Assembly: GCF_015207035.1 (NCBI RefSeq)
Contig: NZ_JADEXQ010000024.1
Span: forward strand, 1 to 61,316
Length of the DNA: 61,316 nucleotides
DNA from: Romeriopsis navalis LEGE 11480
GTDB lineage: Bacteria; Cyanobacteriota; Cyanobacteriia; Leptolyngbyales; Leptolyngbyaceae
Direction: 5' to 3'
The notes below the pieces were generated by a model. The model was given only the letters and a program-made list of their open reading frames with translations. It was not told where the DNA came from and made no database searches. Position numbers and translations under genes: made by a program. Below, piece after piece: positions 39,884-49,516 of the stretch; the first letter of the stretch is position 1, and each line of letters opens with the position of its first letter.

Positions 39884-42439
39884 TTAGCCCATTGTTTCGA
39901 CTTTCCAGTGGTTGAGCTTACCGGCATTGCTCGTGCTACGGTCGGCGACGTGCAATTGCCAGTCACCCCCGGAGTCAGCGCCACGTAAGGCACGGAGGGC
40001 GGGGAAATCCTGGGAACGCCAGGTGTAAATTAGGTTGTCTTGGCTGCCGCCAGTTTGATCGTGCAGGGTAATGGGTGTGCCATTGGGCGGGAGCAGCGAT
40101 ACGCGGAGATCGCCAATCATCGGATGGGTAATGTCAACGGAGACATTAATGTCGCGAATCGTGGTACCAGCGGGGAGTGGTAGCGTCTGGGTAATGCCCG
40201 TTGAATCACCATCGGGAATTACCTTGGATTCGGCGGATTCACTGCTGTGGCTGCTGTTGACATGCAGGACTTCGAGTTCCAGCCCCCAACTGTTGAACTT
40301 GCCGGTATCGAGCCGCGCCCGATCGCTGACCTGAATCTTCCAGGTGCCTTGGGCCGTATCTTCGAGCAGCGTTGCTAACTCGGGAGTTGAGTCGACGGTG
40401 TAGGTGGTTTGGATTTTGCTGCCCCCAGCACCACTGCGATCGTGCAGCAGTAACCGGTTGCCACTCGGGGCTGTGAGCATCACGCTTAAATCCCCAATGT
40501 ACTGATGGGTAATATCAATGGTGAGTTTGATCCGGCGAATTTTGCCGGTGGCCTCCACTTCAATCCGATCGGCAATGCCGCTGAGCCGGTTATCGGGAAT
40601 GCGCTTGTTCGGCGCTGATTCATATTTCACCGTTTTGCTGATGGGCGGCTGTACCGGTGGTTCTGGGTCGGGGCCGGTACCGGGATCAGTTTCACCGTCA
40701 CTGCGTAGGCGTAATGCCTCCGCGACCGCGGCTTGGGCATCGACGTTGCCATGCCCAAACCAAGGACTCCAACTGCCATCGGCACTGCCGATATTACTAA
40801 AGTCGCCTTTGTTGAAAGGGGCGATCGGTGAAACATCCCAAGTCGGATTCGGATCAAAATTGGCGGCGGGCGTCTTGGGATAGGGCTCCATATTTAAGTC
40901 CTTCGACGCGGTGCGTTTGAGCAGGGAAATGACTTCCAAGGCCGATAAGTCCGGATTGGCTGAAATCACGAGCCCCGCAATTCCTGCAACCAGTGGAGTG
41001 GCGCTGGAAGTGCCACCAAACTGTGGATCAACTGGTTCTTTCCCACCGCTGGTGGTGATAATGCCCAGCCCCTTGATATTGCGGAGACGATAGTAGGAAT
41101 GGAGGTTATTGCTCGGCGCGGTGATTCCGATGCCGGGGCCGTAGTTGGAGTAGTGACTACGCTGTGCGGTACTGCCTAACGCGGCAACATGCATGACGCC
41201 AGGGATCCCGACCAAGTTGTTTTGGAAGCGGCGGGCCGTGCGGGGACCGACCCACATGGGTTTATTGCCGGGGCCAAATTCCCACCCCGGCGTGTAGGGG
41301 ACATCGATGTTAGCTTCGTGATTAATCAAGCAATTTTCATTGCCAGCCGCCCACAGAAAGACGATGCCTTTACCACGGCGGCCACCGGTAATGGCTAAAT
41401 CGCTAATCCGATTGCGCACCGGACTCGACCAGATGTTGCGGGGTACCCCGCCCCAGGAATTGGATAGGACGTCAACTTTATCGCCGACATAGGCCAGCAT
41501 GGCCAGCATGCGTGAGTCACTGATGGCCAGACCGCCGCCGCCGAGGGATTGCCATTTAATGGGCAAAAGCCGACAACCCGGGGCTGCCCCAACCGTTAAC
41601 GCGGCGTCCACTTCAGCGGCGACGACGCCGGAGCAGGCGGTGCCGTGATCATTGCCAGCTTCATACATATCTTGCGGCTGTGCCCCAATGTCCCGATTGG
41701 TGGCAAGGCGACTGCCAATGAAGTAACCCCACCCGGCAAATTTGCCATTGGAGTCAAAATCCGGATGGTCAATTTTGCAACCATCGTCAGTCACGCCAAT
41801 TACCACGTCAGCGGAGCCAAAACCCTTCAGGACATTCCATGCGGCTTCACAGCGACTCGATGCGCGTGGATCATAATCCGGATGGCTAAAGCGTTTGTGG
41901 AGGTGCCATTGTCGTTGGTATTCGGGGTCTGTCGGGAGGGGAACTTGCATCAAACTGATGTTGTAGTTCAGGTCGTTCTCGGCCAGTTCGACTTGGGCAT
42001 CGGTTTCGGTTAGGGCGACAACCAATTTCACTGGGTTCATGCCCGTATGGTCAGTCAGTTGAAATAGATAATCTCGATCGCCATATTGCTCTTTCAGGAG
42101 AAGGCCATATTTCCCGGCGAATTCGGAAACAGCTTGATCGGAAATGGTTTGCTTAAACGTAACGAATACGCGATCGGTAATCAGATAGTCTTCGCCGGTT
42201 TCGGCGATTTGGTAGGCATGGTGCGTCGGCGCGACTTGGCGCAGTTCACTCATGGCTTCTTCTAATTCCGTTGGGGGGACGACTATGCGTGACGAGGCAG
42301 AAGATACCTGCTGCGCACCGCCAAAGCCAATGTCGGCGAGCTTGTCGGGTTTCACTCGGGCGACAAACTGATCACGGACTTTTGATAGAACCACCTTTTC
42401 GCCACCGCGATAGGTGTAGACCCCTTTTGATGCAGCCAT
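39884..42439 (-). CDS. Subtilisin-family protease with two C-terminal P domains (PrcA-like)
   Basis: An 851-residue S8 peptidase. After an N-terminal section of about 180 residues (probable inhibitor/propeptide), the catalytic triad appears as Asp in VTDDGCKIDHP near 218, His in NDHGTACSG near 266 and Ser in GGTSSATPLVAGI near 478. Two proprotein-convertase P domains follow (about 610-715 and 740-850), each with IDITHxxIGDL and WKxxVxDR-type strings. The layout resembles the calcium-dependent protease PrcA of Anabaena. No signal peptide is visible, as in that group, so the site of action is uncertain. Linker Pro-rich (DPGTGPDPEPPVQPP). Single gene. Confidence 0.92.
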   Translation of the reverse strand: MAASKGVYTYRGGEKVVLSKVRDQFVARVKPDKLADIGFGGAQQVSSASSRIVVPPTELEEAMSELRQVAPTHHAYQIAETGEDYLITDRVFVTFKQTISDQAVSEFAGKYGLLLKEQYGDRDYLFQLTDHTGMNPVKLVVALTETDAQVELAENDLNYNISLMQVPLPTDPEYQRQWHLHKRFSHPDYDPRASSRCEAAWNVLKGFGSADVVIGVTDDGCKIDHPDFDSNGKFAGWGYFIGSRLATNRDIGAQPQDMYEAGNDHGTACSGVVAAEVDAALTVGAAPGCRLLPIKWQSLGGGGLAISDSRMLAMLAYVGDKVDVLSNSWGGVPRNIWSSPVRNRISDLAITGGRRGKGIVFLWAAGNENCLINHEANIDVPYTPGWEFGPGNKPMWVGPRTARRFQNNLVGIPGVMHVAALGSTAQRSHYSNYGPGIGITAPSNNLHSYYRLRNIKGLGIITTSGGKEPVDPQFGGTSSATPLVAGIAGLVISANPDLSALEVISLLKRTASKDLNMEPYPKTPAANFDPNPTWDVSPIAPFNKGDFSNIGSADGSWSPWFGHGNVDAQAAVAEALRLRSDGETDPGTGPDPEPPVQPPISKTVKYESAPNKRIPDNRLSGIADRIEVEATGKIRRIKLTIDITHQYIGDLSVMLTAPSGNRLLLHDRSGAGGSKIQTTYTVDSTPELATLLEDTAQGTWKIQVSDRARLDTGKFNSWGLELEVLHVNSSHSSESAESKVIPDGDSTGITQTLPLPAGTTIRDINVSVDITHPMIGDLRVSLLPPNGTPITLHDQTGGSQDNLIYTWRSQDFPALRALRGADSGGDWQLHVADRSTSNAGKLNHWKVETMG

Positions 42440-43456: not shown

Positions 43457-44164
43457 TTATACACGTTGTTCAAGGCTAATGCCGTGGGTATCCGTGCCAC
43501 AGGTGTTCAATAATTGATAGCGCTGACTGATGGCTTGGACGGCGGCAGTTTTGTCCGGGCTAGGTTCCCAGGGTTTGGGATTGCCATAGGCGTAGTAGGT
43601 TTCGACCCCGTTAATTCCGATCGCCACTGCGGCGGGAATCAGTTCTTCATAGCTTTTGCGATAGCGGGCGGGGTGAGCCAGAATCACGAGTCCTCCAGCT
43701 TGGTGGATCGCGGAGACGACACGATCGGCTTCCGCCATGGCTCCAGTGGGTGCTTCACCCAGTAAATAATCGGCCATTGCCGGGTGATGGGGATTGAATC
43801 CATAGCCCAGGATGTGGACGACGACGTCGAGTAAAGTTGCGTTGATTTCGACGCCGGTCCAAAGTTGTGGCACGGATTGATCGGGATGTTGTTGCTGCGA
43901 TTCAATCAGATATGCCTGGGCGGCGTAGAAGCCAGAAATTTGGTGATGGTCAGTAATCGCAAATCCCTTCAATCCTAGGTCAAGGGCTTGCTGTGCCAGG
44001 GCCTGGGGATCGAGTTGCCCATCGGAATGTTGAGTGTGCATGTGGAAGTTGAAAGCGTGGGGACAACTTGCCGCATCGATCGTTGCAAATACTTGTCGGA
44101 GTGAAACTAAGTCCTGTGCAGCGGGTTTCTGATATGCCATGGAAGGCGCAGGTAGCACCGTCAT
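43457..44164 (-). CDS. PHP-domain phosphoesterase-like protein
   Basis: A 235-residue PHP-domain protein. Metal-ligand motifs: FNFHMHTQHSDGQL near residue 40, FAITDHHQISG near 72, GVEIN near 104, LAHPARY near 159 and CGTDTHG near 226. PHP domains hydrolyse phosphoesters (histidinol phosphate, nucleotides, DNA ends) with three metals. Here the domain stands alone and in a cyanobacterium its substrate is unknown. No signal peptide. The residues before FNFHMHT form an extra N-terminal helix. The response regulator gene lies upstream on the same strand behind its own terminator. Confidence 0.9.
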   Translation of the reverse strand: MTVLPAPSMAYQKPAAQDLVSLRQVFATIDAASCPHAFNFHMHTQHSDGQLDPQALAQQALDLGLKGFAITDHHQISGFYAAQAYLIESQQQHPDQSVPQLWTGVEINATLLDVVVHILGYGFNPHHPAMADYLLGEAPTGAMAEADRVVSAIHQAGGLVILAHPARYRKSYEELIPAAVAIGINGVETYYAYGNPKPWEPSPDKTAAVQAISQRYQLLNTCGTDTHGISLEQRV

Positions 44165-44430: not shown

Positions 44431-45138
44431 TTAAATCGTCGAGTTGGGGCGGATCAGGCCGTGCTCAAGGGAGTAGCGGACGAGCTCGGTACGGCTGCTG
44501 GTGCCGGTTTTGCTAAAAAGCCGACTCACGTACTTCTCGACATTGCGGACGCTGGTTTCTAGCCGTTTGGCAATTTCTTTATTCATCAGGCCATCGACGA
44601 CTAACTCTAAAACGCTTTCTTCCCGAGGGGTGAAGTCGTGCTGCACCGGCGGGGGCGTAATTGCCAAGGGGCCTTTTTGCTGGAGCAGTGCCCGAATTTC
44701 CGCCATCTGGCGGGCGAGTTCGGCAATACTAATGGTTTCGTCATCAACGGCGGCGGCTTGGAGCTTGGCCTGGCGACCGAGCAGATTCTTGACGACGGCT
44801 ATTAGTTCGTCTGGGTCAAAGGGTTTAGGCAAATAGGCATCGACCCCGGCTTCATAGCCCTGAATCCGATCGCTGGTCATCCCGCGGGCCGTGAGGAAAA
44901 TCACTGGGGTGGCTTGGAAGCGGTCGTCTGATCGCAGTGTTTCAAGGAATTGATAGCCATCGACTTGTGGCATCATCACATCGCTAATCACCAAATCTGG
45001 CAGGACGCGTTGTACCAATTCCCAGCCTTCAGCACCATTGGTGGCTGTGTGGACAGTAAAGTCACTGTCCTCCAGATAGGCTTGAATTGCATCCCGTAAA
45101 CCGGGTTCATCATCGACGAGAACGAGTTGCCCTGGCAT
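44431..45138 (-). CDS. NarL/LuxR-type response regulator
   Basis: A 235-residue regulator. Receiver domain residues 1-120: acidic pair VDDEPG, phospho-acceptor Asp in LVISDVMMPQVDG near 53, Thr in FLTARG and Lys in LPKPFDPDEL. A Gln-rich linker helix follows (AELARQMAEIRALLQQKG), then a LuxR-type HTH (FTPREESVLELVVDGLMNKEIAKRL and SVRNVEKYVSRLFSKTG). Sequence style matches the Ycf29-like cyanobacterial regulators. It binds DNA as a dimer after phosphorylation; its kinase and targets cannot be told, and no intact kinase gene is adjacent. Confidence 0.93.
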   Translation of the reverse strand: MPGQLVLVDDEPGLRDAIQAYLEDSDFTVHTATNGAEGWELVQRVLPDLVISDVMMPQVDGYQFLETLRSDDRFQATPVIFLTARGMTSDRIQGYEAGVDAYLPKPFDPDELIAVVKNLLGRQAKLQAAAVDDETISIAELARQMAEIRALLQQKGPLAITPPPVQHDFTPREESVLELVVDGLMNKEIAKRLETSVRNVEKYVSRLFSKTGTSSRTELVRYSLEHGLIRPNSTI

Positions 45139-45457: not shown

Positions 45458-46006
45458 ATGCGTCGCTTTCCGATTCAGCTATTTAGCACCTTATCAATGT
45501 TGACGATTTTGATGGCGATCGCGCCATCGTCACTCGCAGCGAACCGTTCGCCCCGACGAATTGCGGCGGTTGATCAGCCCATTTGCTATGTGCAGCTAGC
45601 GGGGCAATCGATGCTGAATCTGAATGGTTTGTGCGGCGTTGGGACGCCGAAAAGCAGCGGTGGTGTGATTGACTTGAGCCTTGATGCGGATGGGGATGGC
45701 GTACCGGATCAATTGTTGGCGGAGATGAAGAAGTTTCGGGCGGAGATGTCCCAAGCGAAGAGTTCGGCGGACTATCGTGCCGCGCTCCAAAAACTGGAAT
45801 CGCGGTTGCCCTATTCCGACAATGTTAAGCAGCTCCAGGCGGAGCAGCGGGCCTTGCAAAAGCAGCTCCAAAATCGTACGGGCGGCGGTCAAAACCGGGA
45901 GATTTACCGGAAGCTCAGCTCGATTCAGTCAAAAATTTACAAAGATCCCAGCTATACCAAAGTCCAAAAGCAAATGAGCAAAGTCTATCGCAAGCTCAAT
46001 ACCTAG
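45458..46006 (+). CDS. Secreted calcium-loop protein, tandem paralogue 1 of 4
   Basis: A 182-residue protein with a signal peptide (MRRFPIQLFSTLSMLTILMA, then PSSLAA). The mature part has three zones shared with the next three genes: a Cys pair in PICYVQLAGQSMLNLNGLCG, an EF-hand-like loop DADGDGVPDQL near residue 75, and a long Gln/Lys/Arg-rich helical hairpin with LQAEQRALQKQLQ and DPSYTKVQKQMSKVYRKL. The loop has Asp at positions 1, 3, 5 and 9, as in calcium loops of the dockerin/thrombospondin type-3 kind. The leader CAGGACAGATTGTT resembles that of paralogue 4. Periplasmic; function unknown. Confidence 0.8.
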   Translation: MRRFPIQLFSTLSMLTILMAIAPSSLAANRSPRRIAAVDQPICYVQLAGQSMLNLNGLCGVGTPKSSGGVIDLSLDADGDGVPDQLLAEMKKFRAEMSQAKSSADYRAALQKLESRLPYSDNVKQLQAEQRALQKQLQNRTGGGQNREIYRKLSSIQSKIYKDPSYTKVQKQMSKVYRKLNT

Positions 46007-46101
46007 GGGCTGGCATGAGGCGTTGCCTGGATTGATTCGGTGTCTGGTGTGTGTCGCGGGTGTTCCTGTGCTTAATCGTGATGATCGGCGGATCGAATTT
46101 T

Positions 46102-46719
46102 ATGCCCAAAATTAGTCAATTCTTGCAGTTTGGTTGGTGTTTGCCGGTCTACTGGTGTGGCCTGAGTGCGACGGCGATCGCCGCTATCCCACCGCCGGTT
46201 GTGCGGGCACCGGCGAATGTGCCGCAACTGCCGCTGTGCTATATCGAAATGCCGAACCAGCAACGCCTGAGCTTGAATGATGCCTGTTTTATGGGCAAGC
46301 AAATGGCGCGATCGCGGCTGTTTGATCTGGTGACGGATTTGGATAAAGATGGTGTGCCGGATGAGTTAGCCGGTTTTTTTGAGCGGATGGATCGGGCGAT
46401 GAATATGTCCCTCAATGCCACGCCGGAAGCGCGTTTAGCCCAGGCGGCGCAACAGCGCGAGATTTTCAAAGAATTTGCCCGGCGCGCCCCAGTCGCTGCG
46501 GATATTAAGGCTGCCTTAAATCAGATGGCGGAGATGATGTACCAATCGGCAAAGCTGACCCGTGAGCCTTCTGCGGCTCAAAGGCAAGAGTTTGCGCAAA
46601 TGGATCAGGTGATGAAAAAAGTTCAAAATGATCCGTTTATGAAGACTGTAGATGCGTATTCTGACAAATATCGGACAAACCGACTTAAATTGAATAATCC
46701 CTCTATTACTCTGCCGTAA
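46102..46719 (+). CDS. Secreted calcium-loop protein, tandem paralogue 2 of 4 (most diverged)
   Basis: I place the start at the ATG at 46102 (MPKISQFLQFGWCLPVYWCG), since the upstream bases GGATCGAATTTT look like the leaders of the sister genes and the longer GTG start at 46051 adds no sense. The 205 residues have a signal peptide ending near AIAA, the Cys pair (LCYIEMPNQQRLSLNDACF), the loop DLDKDGVPDEL and a helical part richer in Met and Ala (MNMSLNATPEARLAQAAQQ) that ends DPFMKTVDAYSDKYR. It is the most divergent copy, with a longer helix. Sits 95 bases after paralogue 1. Function unknown. Confidence 0.78.
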   Translation: MPKISQFLQFGWCLPVYWCGLSATAIAAIPPPVVRAPANVPQLPLCYIEMPNQQRLSLNDACFMGKQMARSRLFDLVTDLDKDGVPDELAGFFERMDRAMNMSLNATPEARLAQAAQQREIFKEFARRAPVAADIKAALNQMAEMMYQSAKLTREPSAAQRQEFAQMDQVMKKVQNDPFMKTVDAYSDKYRTNRLKLNNPSITLP

Positions 46720-46900
46720 CCCGGCTGCTAGCTAGTCCATTGGTGGACTTTTGAGATGAATTATGTCGCTCCGGTTTTGCATGAATCGGGGCGGCGTTTT
46801 TGTGAAAAAGCATTTTATTTCAGTGGGATTACGGAAAACCGCATATGTGCCAGTGAAGGAACTGTATGTACCCACAAGCAAGTATTAGGATTTAAGTTCT

Positions 46901-47428
46901 ATGCGTTCCCTTCCGCTCTGTCGCACATTATCAATTTTGGCAATTTTTGCGGCGATGGCGCAGCCGACGATCGCAACGGCCCGCTCATCGAATCAAATTG
47001 CCTCACGGAATACACCCGTCTGCTATGTGCAGTTTTCGGGGCAGTCCATGCGTAGCCTCGATCGACTCTGTGGTGTGGGCAAGCAAAGCAACCTGATTGA
47101 TTTGACGATTGATCGCAATGGGGATGGTGTCCCGGATCAATTAGTCGCTGCAATTCGTTCCTATCGAGCGGCGATCCGCAGTGCCCGCAGTTCCGAAGAT
47201 TATCAGATGGCTCGACAAAAGCTTGATGCGCAGCTGCCCTACTCGAATAATGTGAAACAGCTCCAAGCCCAACAGCGACAGCTCCAGAAACAGCTGAAAG
47301 GGGCAACTCGAACGCAGCGGCGACAGATTTATCGTCAGATGAGGCCACTACGAACCAAGATGTACCGTGATGCAAGCTATACCAAAATTCAACGGGAAAT
47401 TGCCAAGGCTTATCGTGTTTTGAATTAG
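46901..47428 (+). CDS. Secreted calcium-loop protein, tandem paralogue 3 of 4
   Basis: A 175-residue protein with signal peptide (MRSLPLCRTLSILAIFAAMA, cleavage near ATA-RS), Cys pair (PVCYVQFSGQSMRSLDRLCG), loop DRNGDGVPDQL and Gln/Arg-rich helices (LQAQQRQLQKQLKGATRTQR). It is nearly identical to paralogue 4 over most of its length, with third-position differences, so these two are the youngest duplicates. The leader and a hairpin terminator at 47522-47563 separate them. Probably periplasmic and monocistronic. Confidence 0.8.
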   Translation: MRSLPLCRTLSILAIFAAMAQPTIATARSSNQIASRNTPVCYVQFSGQSMRSLDRLCGVGKQSNLIDLTIDRNGDGVPDQLVAAIRSYRAAIRSARSSEDYQMARQKLDAQLPYSNNVKQLQAQQRQLQKQLKGATRTQRRQIYRQMRPLRTKMYRDASYTKIQREIAKAYRVLN

Positions 47429-47521
47429 CCGTTTGCGTTGAATGCTGTGGGCTGATTGATGTTGCAGCGTCTTGCTTGCAGGCCGGTTGCTTAAGGCCAC
47501 GACTAAGGTTAACTGCGGCTG

Positions 47522-47563
47522 ACCGCGCCTTACCGAACTTCTATCGGTAAGGCGTGGTTTTTT
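47522..47563 (+). terminator. Terminator after paralogue 3
   Basis: A 15-bp stem (ACCGCGCCTTACCGA / TCGGTAAGGCGTGGT, one G-T pair), 7-base loop, then six T. Confidence 0.9.
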
Positions 47564-47685
47564 GGGTGATTTTTGGATTTGCGCAGTTTGGATTTGCTCA
47601 AATTGCTTACCGGGAAAATTGCATAACCATGAAGGCTGAGAACGTAATTAACCAATGTTCCGCTCACGTCATAAGGACAAATTTT

Positions 47686-48216
47686 ATGCGTTCTCTTCAG
47701 CTCTGCCGCACTTTATCCGTTTTAACAATCTTTGCGGCGATGGCGCAGCCAATGATGGCTAGCGCTCGATCATCGAATCAAATTGCCTCACGGAATACAC
47801 CGATTTGCTATGTGCAGTTTTCGGGGCAATCGATGCGTAGCCTCGATCGACTCTGTGGTGTGGGGAAGAAAAGCAACATGATTGATCTGACGATCGATCG
47901 CAATGGCGACGGTGTCCCCGATCAGCTACTGGCCGCAATTCGGACCCATCGAGCGGCGATGCGTAGCGCTCGCAGTTCGGAAGATTATCAGATGGCGCAA
48001 CAAAAGCTCGATGCGAAACTGCCTTACTCAAATCAAGTGAAGCAGCTCCAAGCCCAACAGCGTCAGCTCCAAAAACAGTTGAAAGGCGCAACCCGATCGC
48101 AACGCCGCCAGATCTATCGCCAAATGGACCCAATTCAACGCAAGATCTACCAGGATCCGAGCTATAAAAAGATCCAACGGGAGATTTCCAAGGCTTATCG
48201 TGCCATGAATTCTTAA
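47686..48216 (+). CDS. Secreted calcium-loop protein, tandem paralogue 4 of 4
   Basis: The ATG at 47686 (MRSLQLCRTLSVLTIFAAMA) follows AAGGACAAATTTT; an earlier start at 47554 would read through a leader that resembles those of the sister genes. It has 176 residues: signal peptide, Cys pair (PICYVQFSGQSMRSLDRLCG), loop DRNGDGVPDQL, helical C-terminus (DPIQRKIYQDPSYKKIQREI). It is close to paralogue 3 in both DNA and protein. Behind the terminator of paralogue 3 it must have its own promoter. Confidence 0.8.
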   Translation: MRSLQLCRTLSVLTIFAAMAQPMMASARSSNQIASRNTPICYVQFSGQSMRSLDRLCGVGKKSNMIDLTIDRNGDGVPDQLLAAIRTHRAAMRSARSSEDYQMAQQKLDAKLPYSNQVKQLQAQQRQLQKQLKGATRSQRRQIYRQMDPIQRKIYQDPSYKKIQREISKAYRAMNS

Positions 48217-48274: not shown

Positions 48275-49258
48275 TTACTCGCTGAGATCCGTTACGGGGT
48301 GGGAACTGTCGCGTTTCGTTGTCTTCCCTGTGGGATAAGGCGTGATGTTTTTGGCTTGGGCTGGTAGTGTGGCTTGTTTTTGGCCTTGCCAACGGGCGTT
48401 GAGACAGAGTAAACCGATCGGCGTACTGACGAGGTCCACGCTATCGGCTCGGCGCAGCAATAGTTTGACGATGGCGATCGGGAGTTCTTTAAGGAGCCAC
48501 CGGAGCAAGCGTTGCCCGTAGAGCGATAGTGATGGTTGCTCCATCAAGGCAATGCCGTGGATGTCATGCAGATATTGGTTGGAACGGCCATAGCGTCGCC
48601 ATTGGCTCAATAACTCGTCGAAGCTGCGGCGATGGCGGTGCCGGACGATCGCGCTGTCCGCAAACACATATTCCCAAGCCGTTTCTTGTAAAATGCGCCA
48701 GCAAATATCGGCGTCGCCGCCGGTGGTGAGATGGGGCCGGAATAGGTCAATTTCCTGGAAGATACTAGCCCGGATGCCCACGTTGGCGGTTTGGCCGTAG
48801 GGCCGGAAAGCGTTGGCGAGCGTGTGTTTTTGGGAGAGAGTTTCCTGGCGATCGGCGTAGCGCTCCAGGAGACTATTGCCCGGCAAGGCTTGGATTTCGC
48901 CGACGACAATACCAACGGATGGGTCATTAAAGCCGGCGACTAAATCCAATAACCACTGCGGTTCGGGCCGACAATCGGCATCCGTAAAGGCCAGCAGTGA
49001 GCCTTGGGCTGCGACAATGCCACAATTGCGCGCGGCGTAGGAACCCCGAATTTCGGCTTCTCGTAGTGCGGTGATGTCATCGGTTGCCTGGAGGATTTCC
49101 CACGTGCGATCGTGACTGCCATTATCGACCAGCAGAAATTCGATGCGATCGAGGGGATAAGTCTGAGCGCGCAAACAATCGAGCAAATCAGGTAGATCAT
49201 CTTCGCCGTTATAAATCGGGATGATCACAGAGACAAAAGGCAGCAATTGAGAAACCAT
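48275..49258 (-). CDS. Family 2 glycosyltransferase
   Basis: Start at the ATG at 49258 (MVSQLLPFVSVIIPIYNGED), where family-like sequence begins; upstream residues make no sense. The 327 residues hold a GT-A fold: VIIPIYNGEDDL, nucleotide-binding DNGSHDRT near residue 46, AFTDADCRPEPQWL with DxD near residue 95, and acceptor-site GGDADICWRI with the ED/DD-type acid near 187. No clear C-terminal membrane helix pair, so it acts at the cytoplasmic face on an envelope or exopolysaccharide acceptor. The tail is basic (GQKQATLPAQAKNITPY). Single gene converging on paralogue 4. Confidence 0.9.
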   Translation of the reverse strand: MVSQLLPFVSVIIPIYNGEDDLPDLLDCLRAQTYPLDRIEFLLVDNGSHDRTWEILQATDDITALREAEIRGSYAARNCGIVAAQGSLLAFTDADCRPEPQWLLDLVAGFNDPSVGIVVGEIQALPGNSLLERYADRQETLSQKHTLANAFRPYGQTANVGIRASIFQEIDLFRPHLTTGGDADICWRILQETAWEYVFADSAIVRHRHRRSFDELLSQWRRYGRSNQYLHDIHGIALMEQPSLSLYGQRLLRWLLKELPIAIVKLLLRRADSVDLVSTPIGLLCLNARWQGQKQATLPAQAKNITPYPTGKTTKRDSSHPVTDLSE

Positions 49259-49516
49259 GAGAGAAGACAAGAAATTCGCGGGTTTAGGGTGACGGAGCGC
49301 GGTTTTGCGATGCGGGATTAATCTAGAGGCATTCATCCAGGATGCGAACCGACTGCGACAAAACACCTGTGGCAGTGCATGACAGATTTAGGTTTAGTGT
49401 GCGCCGATCGAGGGATTTCCTAACAGTCTTTACTGAGCTTTAACCAGAAAAGTCCCCCGTTCGTTAATTTGATTCTCTACAATAGGGGCTTGTAATTTGT
49501 TTACTTGGGTGCCGTA

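Follow-up and report, generated by a model that had tools for sequence, protein, structure and literature searches.

Four tandem paralogues with a C-x15-C header and a possibly YlbF/YmcA-like helical half in the cyanobacterium Romeriopsis navalis LEGE 11480

Four paralogous genes lie in tandem on the same strand at 45458-48216 of a 61,316-nucleotide stretch of Romeriopsis navalis LEGE 11480 (contig NZ_JADEXQ010000024.1; hereafter the window, to which the coordinates below refer unless a locus is named). The reading that we prefer, at a probability of roughly 0.4, is that they arose by tandem expansion, within one lineage, of a gene for a small exported protein, and that their products are disulfide-headed, YlbF-like, dimerising envelope adaptors multiplied as alternative subunits, a function that we infer. 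New here are a widespread C-x15-C header, and a likeness of the helical half to YlbF/YmcA (RicA/RicF) proteins that is consistent across methods but below formal significance.

Array structure and divergence of the copies

All four open reading frames lie where the first-pass annotation had placed them, and a search of the same genome with copy 1 returned only copies 4 (E 1.5e-54), 3 (4.8e-52), and 2 (1.7e-10). For copy 2, the ATG at 46102 is a better start than that of the longest frame, as is the ATG at 47686 for copy 4.

45458..46006, + strand: copy 1, 182 aa; signal-type N-terminus; C43-x15-C59; loop DADGDGVPD at aa 76-84; helices at aa 84-180
45584..45634, + strand: C-x15-C header module of copy 1 (sequence motif)
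45683..45709, + strand: D-x-D-x-D-G-x-x-D loop of copy 1 (sequence motif)
45707..45997, + strand: five-helix part of copy 1 (predicted model); aa ~118-182 superpose on RicA/YmcA
46102..46719, + strand: copy 2, 205 aa; strongly diverged; C46-x15-C62; loop DLDKDGVPD at aa 79-87
46901..47428, + strand: copy 3, 175 aa; C41-x15-C57; loop DRNGDGVPD at aa 71-79
47686..48216, + strand: copy 4, 176 aa; C41-x15-C57; loop DRNGDGVPD at aa 71-79
46237-46287, 47021-47071, and 47806-47856, + strand: C-x15-C headers of copies 2, 3, and 4 (sequence motif)
47521..47559, + strand: between copies 3 and 4, a terminator-like hairpin of 16 pairs with a T run behind it (consensus match only)

As the first-pass annotation had described, each copy carries a signal-type N-terminus (by eye, a hydrophobic segment with an AxA-type end), a cysteine pair, a calcium-type loop motif (D-x-[DN]-x-D-G-x-x-D), and a Gln-rich helical part. 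Its helical hairpin is replaced by a five-helix bundle in the predicted model. The leader words that it saw upstream of the starts are indeed shared, but they amount to ribosome-binding-site-like GGA ~9-13 bases before the starts and nothing beyond. The terminator-like hairpin suggests that copy 4 may be transcribed apart from copy 3, with its own promoter; terminator-like sites in the region show no excess over shuffles.

Protein identity is 53% between copies 1 and 3, 56% between copies 1 and 4, and 84% between copies 3 and 4, while the strong divergence claimed earlier for copy 2 is borne out by its 28-32% identity to the others. Copies 3 and 4, previously regarded as very recent duplicates, are 83% identical at the DNA level; their likeness ends ~7 bases upstream of the start and at the stop codon, and the flanks are dissimilar. 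Since they differ at 17% of bases, with a dS of ~0.5 (0.46-0.67) and a dN of ~0.09, they are neither very recent nor diversifying. Their dN/dS is ~0.13-0.18: copies 3 and 4, the one measurable pair, are under purifying selection, which lends no support to the suggestion that variation itself was selected.

Relatives were sought with a full-length profile in 388 sampled genomes of the class. The family was found in five of these, and the remaining matches covered the N-terminal header only. Four carriers are among the 42 genomes of the family-level group and one (G259) is among the 63 of its order; all convincing relatives are in genomes of the same taxonomic class. The window genome has four copies, G009, G031, and G259 two each, and G023 one. 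The G259 genes (L015/L035, L162) are nearly identical and ~2.2 kb apart, each adjoining a similar secreted partner gene, and this independent tandem pair implies that tandem expansion happened more than once. The G259 partners encode secreted, cysteine-containing proteins with an EWCSPGYWRQ motif, so that the unit duplicated there is a two-gene one.

The surroundings of the array in the window include three genes on the opposite strand.

44431..45138, − strand: two-component response regulator, divergent from copy 1; conserved neighbour in G009 (83% identity)
43457..44164, − strand: PHP-type metallohydrolase; conserved neighbour in G009 (64% identity)
48275-49366, − strand: glycosyltransferase, flanking the array on the copy 4 side

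In G009, one family gene occupies the same divergent position beside the same response regulator and PHP gene, and this synteny suggests that the site probably held one ancestral gene, oriented divergently to the response regulator. The earlier proposal of secreted proteins expanded in one spot and kept by selection is supported by the G009 arrangement, by purifying selection on copies 3 and 4, and by the other two-copy genomes. The regulator, which we take to combine a receiver with a LuxR/NarL-type C-terminal part and to be Rre1/Ycf29-like, is a candidate regulator of copy 1.

The array could also be the outcome of neutral duplication, in which copies of a non-essential small exported protein come and go and their number has no special meaning. 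The very patchy spread across the class sample is what such turnover would give, and the very long branch of copy 2 in the family tree suggests drift; few nodes of that tree are supported, and the monophyly of the four window copies is not resolved. Against this, all four reading frames are intact with their motifs retained, the dN/dS of copies 3 and 4 is low, and four of the five carriers are multi-copy. We regard neutral duplication as very unlikely.

A mobile-element or phage origin was considered and dropped: no relatives were found in phage or plasmid records, and none were confirmed in viral contigs. The sole match among genome contigs lies on a Nocardioides contig (L011), spans 47 residues around the loop at E 3e-6, and was taken as a match of the loop only. 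Searches with the helical half without the header gave no convincing relatives; matches below the true family had E ~1e-3 or worse and fell mostly in large unrelated frames. Elsewhere in the window, 39884-42439 (− strand) encodes an 851-aa subtilisin-type protease with, by eye, two C-terminal proprotein-convertase-like P domains. The HIP1 octamer GCGATCGC, which is enriched in many cyanobacteria, occurs 23 times against 2.2 expected; like the class to which all convincing relatives belong, this points to a cyanobacterial host. Beside one G031 family member lie two genes (L007 36-752 and 806-1423), the first of which has nearly the whole signal peptide in common with that member and an unrelated mature part, suggesting signal-peptide shuffling.

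The C-x15-C header and the calcium-type loop

We searched 96 genomes with a header-only profile of 28 columns, which covers the cysteine pair alone and leaves out the signal peptide. At E <= 0.05, it matched in 31 of the genomes, up to eight times per genome, in frames of widely differing length. When translated, nearly all matches followed a hydrophobic N-terminal segment and had exactly 15 residues between the cysteines, although position and spacing were partly selected, because the profile was seeded from matches of a model that included the signal peptide; the bias is reduced, not removed. All four copies match this profile (E 1.2e-13 to 9.4e-11; copies 1-3 supplied profile rows). The consensus, directly after the hydrophobic segment, is C-[YF]-x10-L-x2-[LF]-C(-G), from which copy 2 departs at the last positions (A-C-F).

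BLAST sorts the parts downstream of the header into 18 groups, among them retropepsin-like aspartyl proteases (PF13975) and, by a weak match, FxLYD-like proteins; by eye, lysozyme-like and proline-rich proteins carry it as well. Such cyanobacterial C-x15-C proteins have the header alone in common with the array family and are otherwise unrelated downstream. Judged by these profile matches, the cysteine pair is not special to the array family and is a widespread header of putatively exported cyanobacterial proteins. In the proteins scanned, the header was left uncovered by Pfam and NCBIfam models, and a limited literature search turned up no account of the header, nor of a YlbF domain that is exported. 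The genome that carries the array has two more header proteins, namely a retropepsin-like aspartyl protease (PF13975) at L055 (G000:C45) and a 143-aa protein with further cysteines at L163 (G000:C33). Beyond L055, the header was seen at L087-L116 in otherwise unrelated, putatively exported cyanobacterial proteins.

The first-pass annotation would have counted a lack of loop conservation among homologues against its calcium proposal, and this applies in part: D-x-[DN]-x-D-G-x-x-D stands at the same place in 8 of 10 distinct members, but is absent from the G259 proteins and broken in one G031 protein, G031b. The header and the helices persist in these members, and the loss of the loop in them indicates that it is not a defining part of the family; on this comparison, it is a conserved but dispensable part. 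The loop has the ligand pattern of EF-like, thrombospondin type 3, and dockerin loops and, like them, leads into a helix. It differs from these in being single, in having no acidic residue at EF position 12, and in not occurring in all members. No EF-hand, TSP3, or dockerin profile matched at E up to 5. From its ligand pattern, we infer that the loop may bind calcium.

If so, the proteins might instead be calcium-dependent surface or matrix proteins, in which calcium binding by the loop drives attachment or polymer binding. The export signal and the constant place of the loop in most members fit this idea. A lone loop that matches none of the three profiles, and that is missing or broken in members that keep everything else, speaks against it, and we consider it quite unlikely.

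The helical half and a proposed adaptor role

The YlbF-family proteins known so far work with the RNase Y machinery inside the cell (RicA is a helper of RNase Y), which counts against the envelope role proposed below. In AlphaFold models of copy 1 and a G259 protein, five helices were predicted with pLDDT ~82-97, while the header was modelled at low pLDDT (~40-67). When the family profile was compared with the PDB, RicA (E 0.013) and YmcA (0.035) ranked first, in two nearly identical searches that are not independent. Com_YlbF (PF06133) matched more members than any other Pfam family did (4/10, best E 0.043), but below its curated cut-off of 23.9 bits (copy 1, 12.8 bits; copy 4, 13.4 bits). 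WXG100, CENP-H, and other weak Pfam matches were dismissed as coiled-coil noise. Against six YlbF-family proteins from Bacillus, Cytobacillus, and Listeria records, hhalign gave a score of 27.7, compared with maxima of 21.4 for 400 column plus heptad-block shuffles and 19.4 for the reversed alignment, at a probability of 18%.

Foldseek placed YmcA first for both models, but at E 0.47-1.4. VIA-align placed RicA/YmcA first for both (rmsd 1.5 and 1.4 A over ~65 residues, 20-22% identity), with Z of 8.2 and 8.5; chance alone can give helical bundles a Z of up to 13, and the alignments behind the two models are largely the same. Across comparisons, the array core superposes on the YlbF/YmcA family at 1.0-1.6 A over ~65 residues with a colinear sequence alignment through three core helices, whereas most other helical bundles need 2-8 A. 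These lines are individually weak and none is formally significant; jointly, they favour a YlbF-like fold, by remote homology or convergence.

The same data bear on a generic periplasmic coiled-coil protein, such as a holdase of the Skp/OmpH or Spy type that acts on unfolded proteins of the envelope, whose likeness to RicA would be due to chance among helical bundles. Charged, Gln-rich helices, a putative envelope location, weak OmpH matches in two of the ten members, and Skp itself among the structural matches (Z 7.1) would all suit a holdase. Skp, however, superposes at 5.4 A, far looser than RicA/YmcA (1.0-1.5 A), and gave no significant profile match, and a holdase leaves the conserved positions RLPYS..V and DPS unexplained. 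We therefore judge it unlikely.

In both the YlbF/YmcA family and the array family, a single genome can have several paralogues. The array proteins differ in their signal-type N-terminus, which argues against a cytoplasmic role, and in their C-x15-C header and D-x-D-x-D-G loop. Cytoplasmic YlbF genes passing the PF06133 cut-off were found in none of 58 cyanobacterial genomes searched. In RicA and RicF, C-terminal cysteines ligate an Fe-S cluster (PMC6751060); none of the four copies has a cysteine after the header, so that RicA/RicF-type Fe-S tails are absent. A Gln-rich centre is a further trait in common with YheA/Qrp, a YlbF-family member described as glutamine-rich, with a central QQKQMQ motif (PMC12445100). 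In the matching helical region, copies 3 and 4 read QAQQRQLQKQL, perhaps by coincidence.

The adaptor model that we prefer would run as follows. The Sec route would carry the proteins to the periplasm or the cell surface, and a disulfide between the two header cysteines would close a small beta-hairpin. In loop-bearing members, the link would be stiffened by a divalent ion, most likely calcium. The helical part, as a distant or look-alike YlbF/YmcA (RicA/RicF) domain, would dimerise and act in the envelope as an adaptor or scaffold without catalysis of its own. As the paralogues RicA and RicF form pairs with one another, additional array copies may likewise provide alternative partners for hetero-oligomers. 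We prefer the adaptor model because no catalytic-looking residue set is conserved among family members and because the closest fold works by pairing paralogues.

Header, fold, and envelope

A broader formulation sees in the array an exported branch of the YlbF/YmcA fold that is linked to an unnamed header, one that acts as a shared envelope-sorting, anchoring, or redox device, with the YlbF-like part as one cargo among others; this is a doubtful but real possibility. If the YlbF likeness is real, a fold of RNA-processing helpers inside Firmicute cells would, in cyanobacteria, also work outside the cytoplasm. The header module is a wider lead than the array itself and may offer a way into many exported proteins of cyanobacteria that lack annotation.
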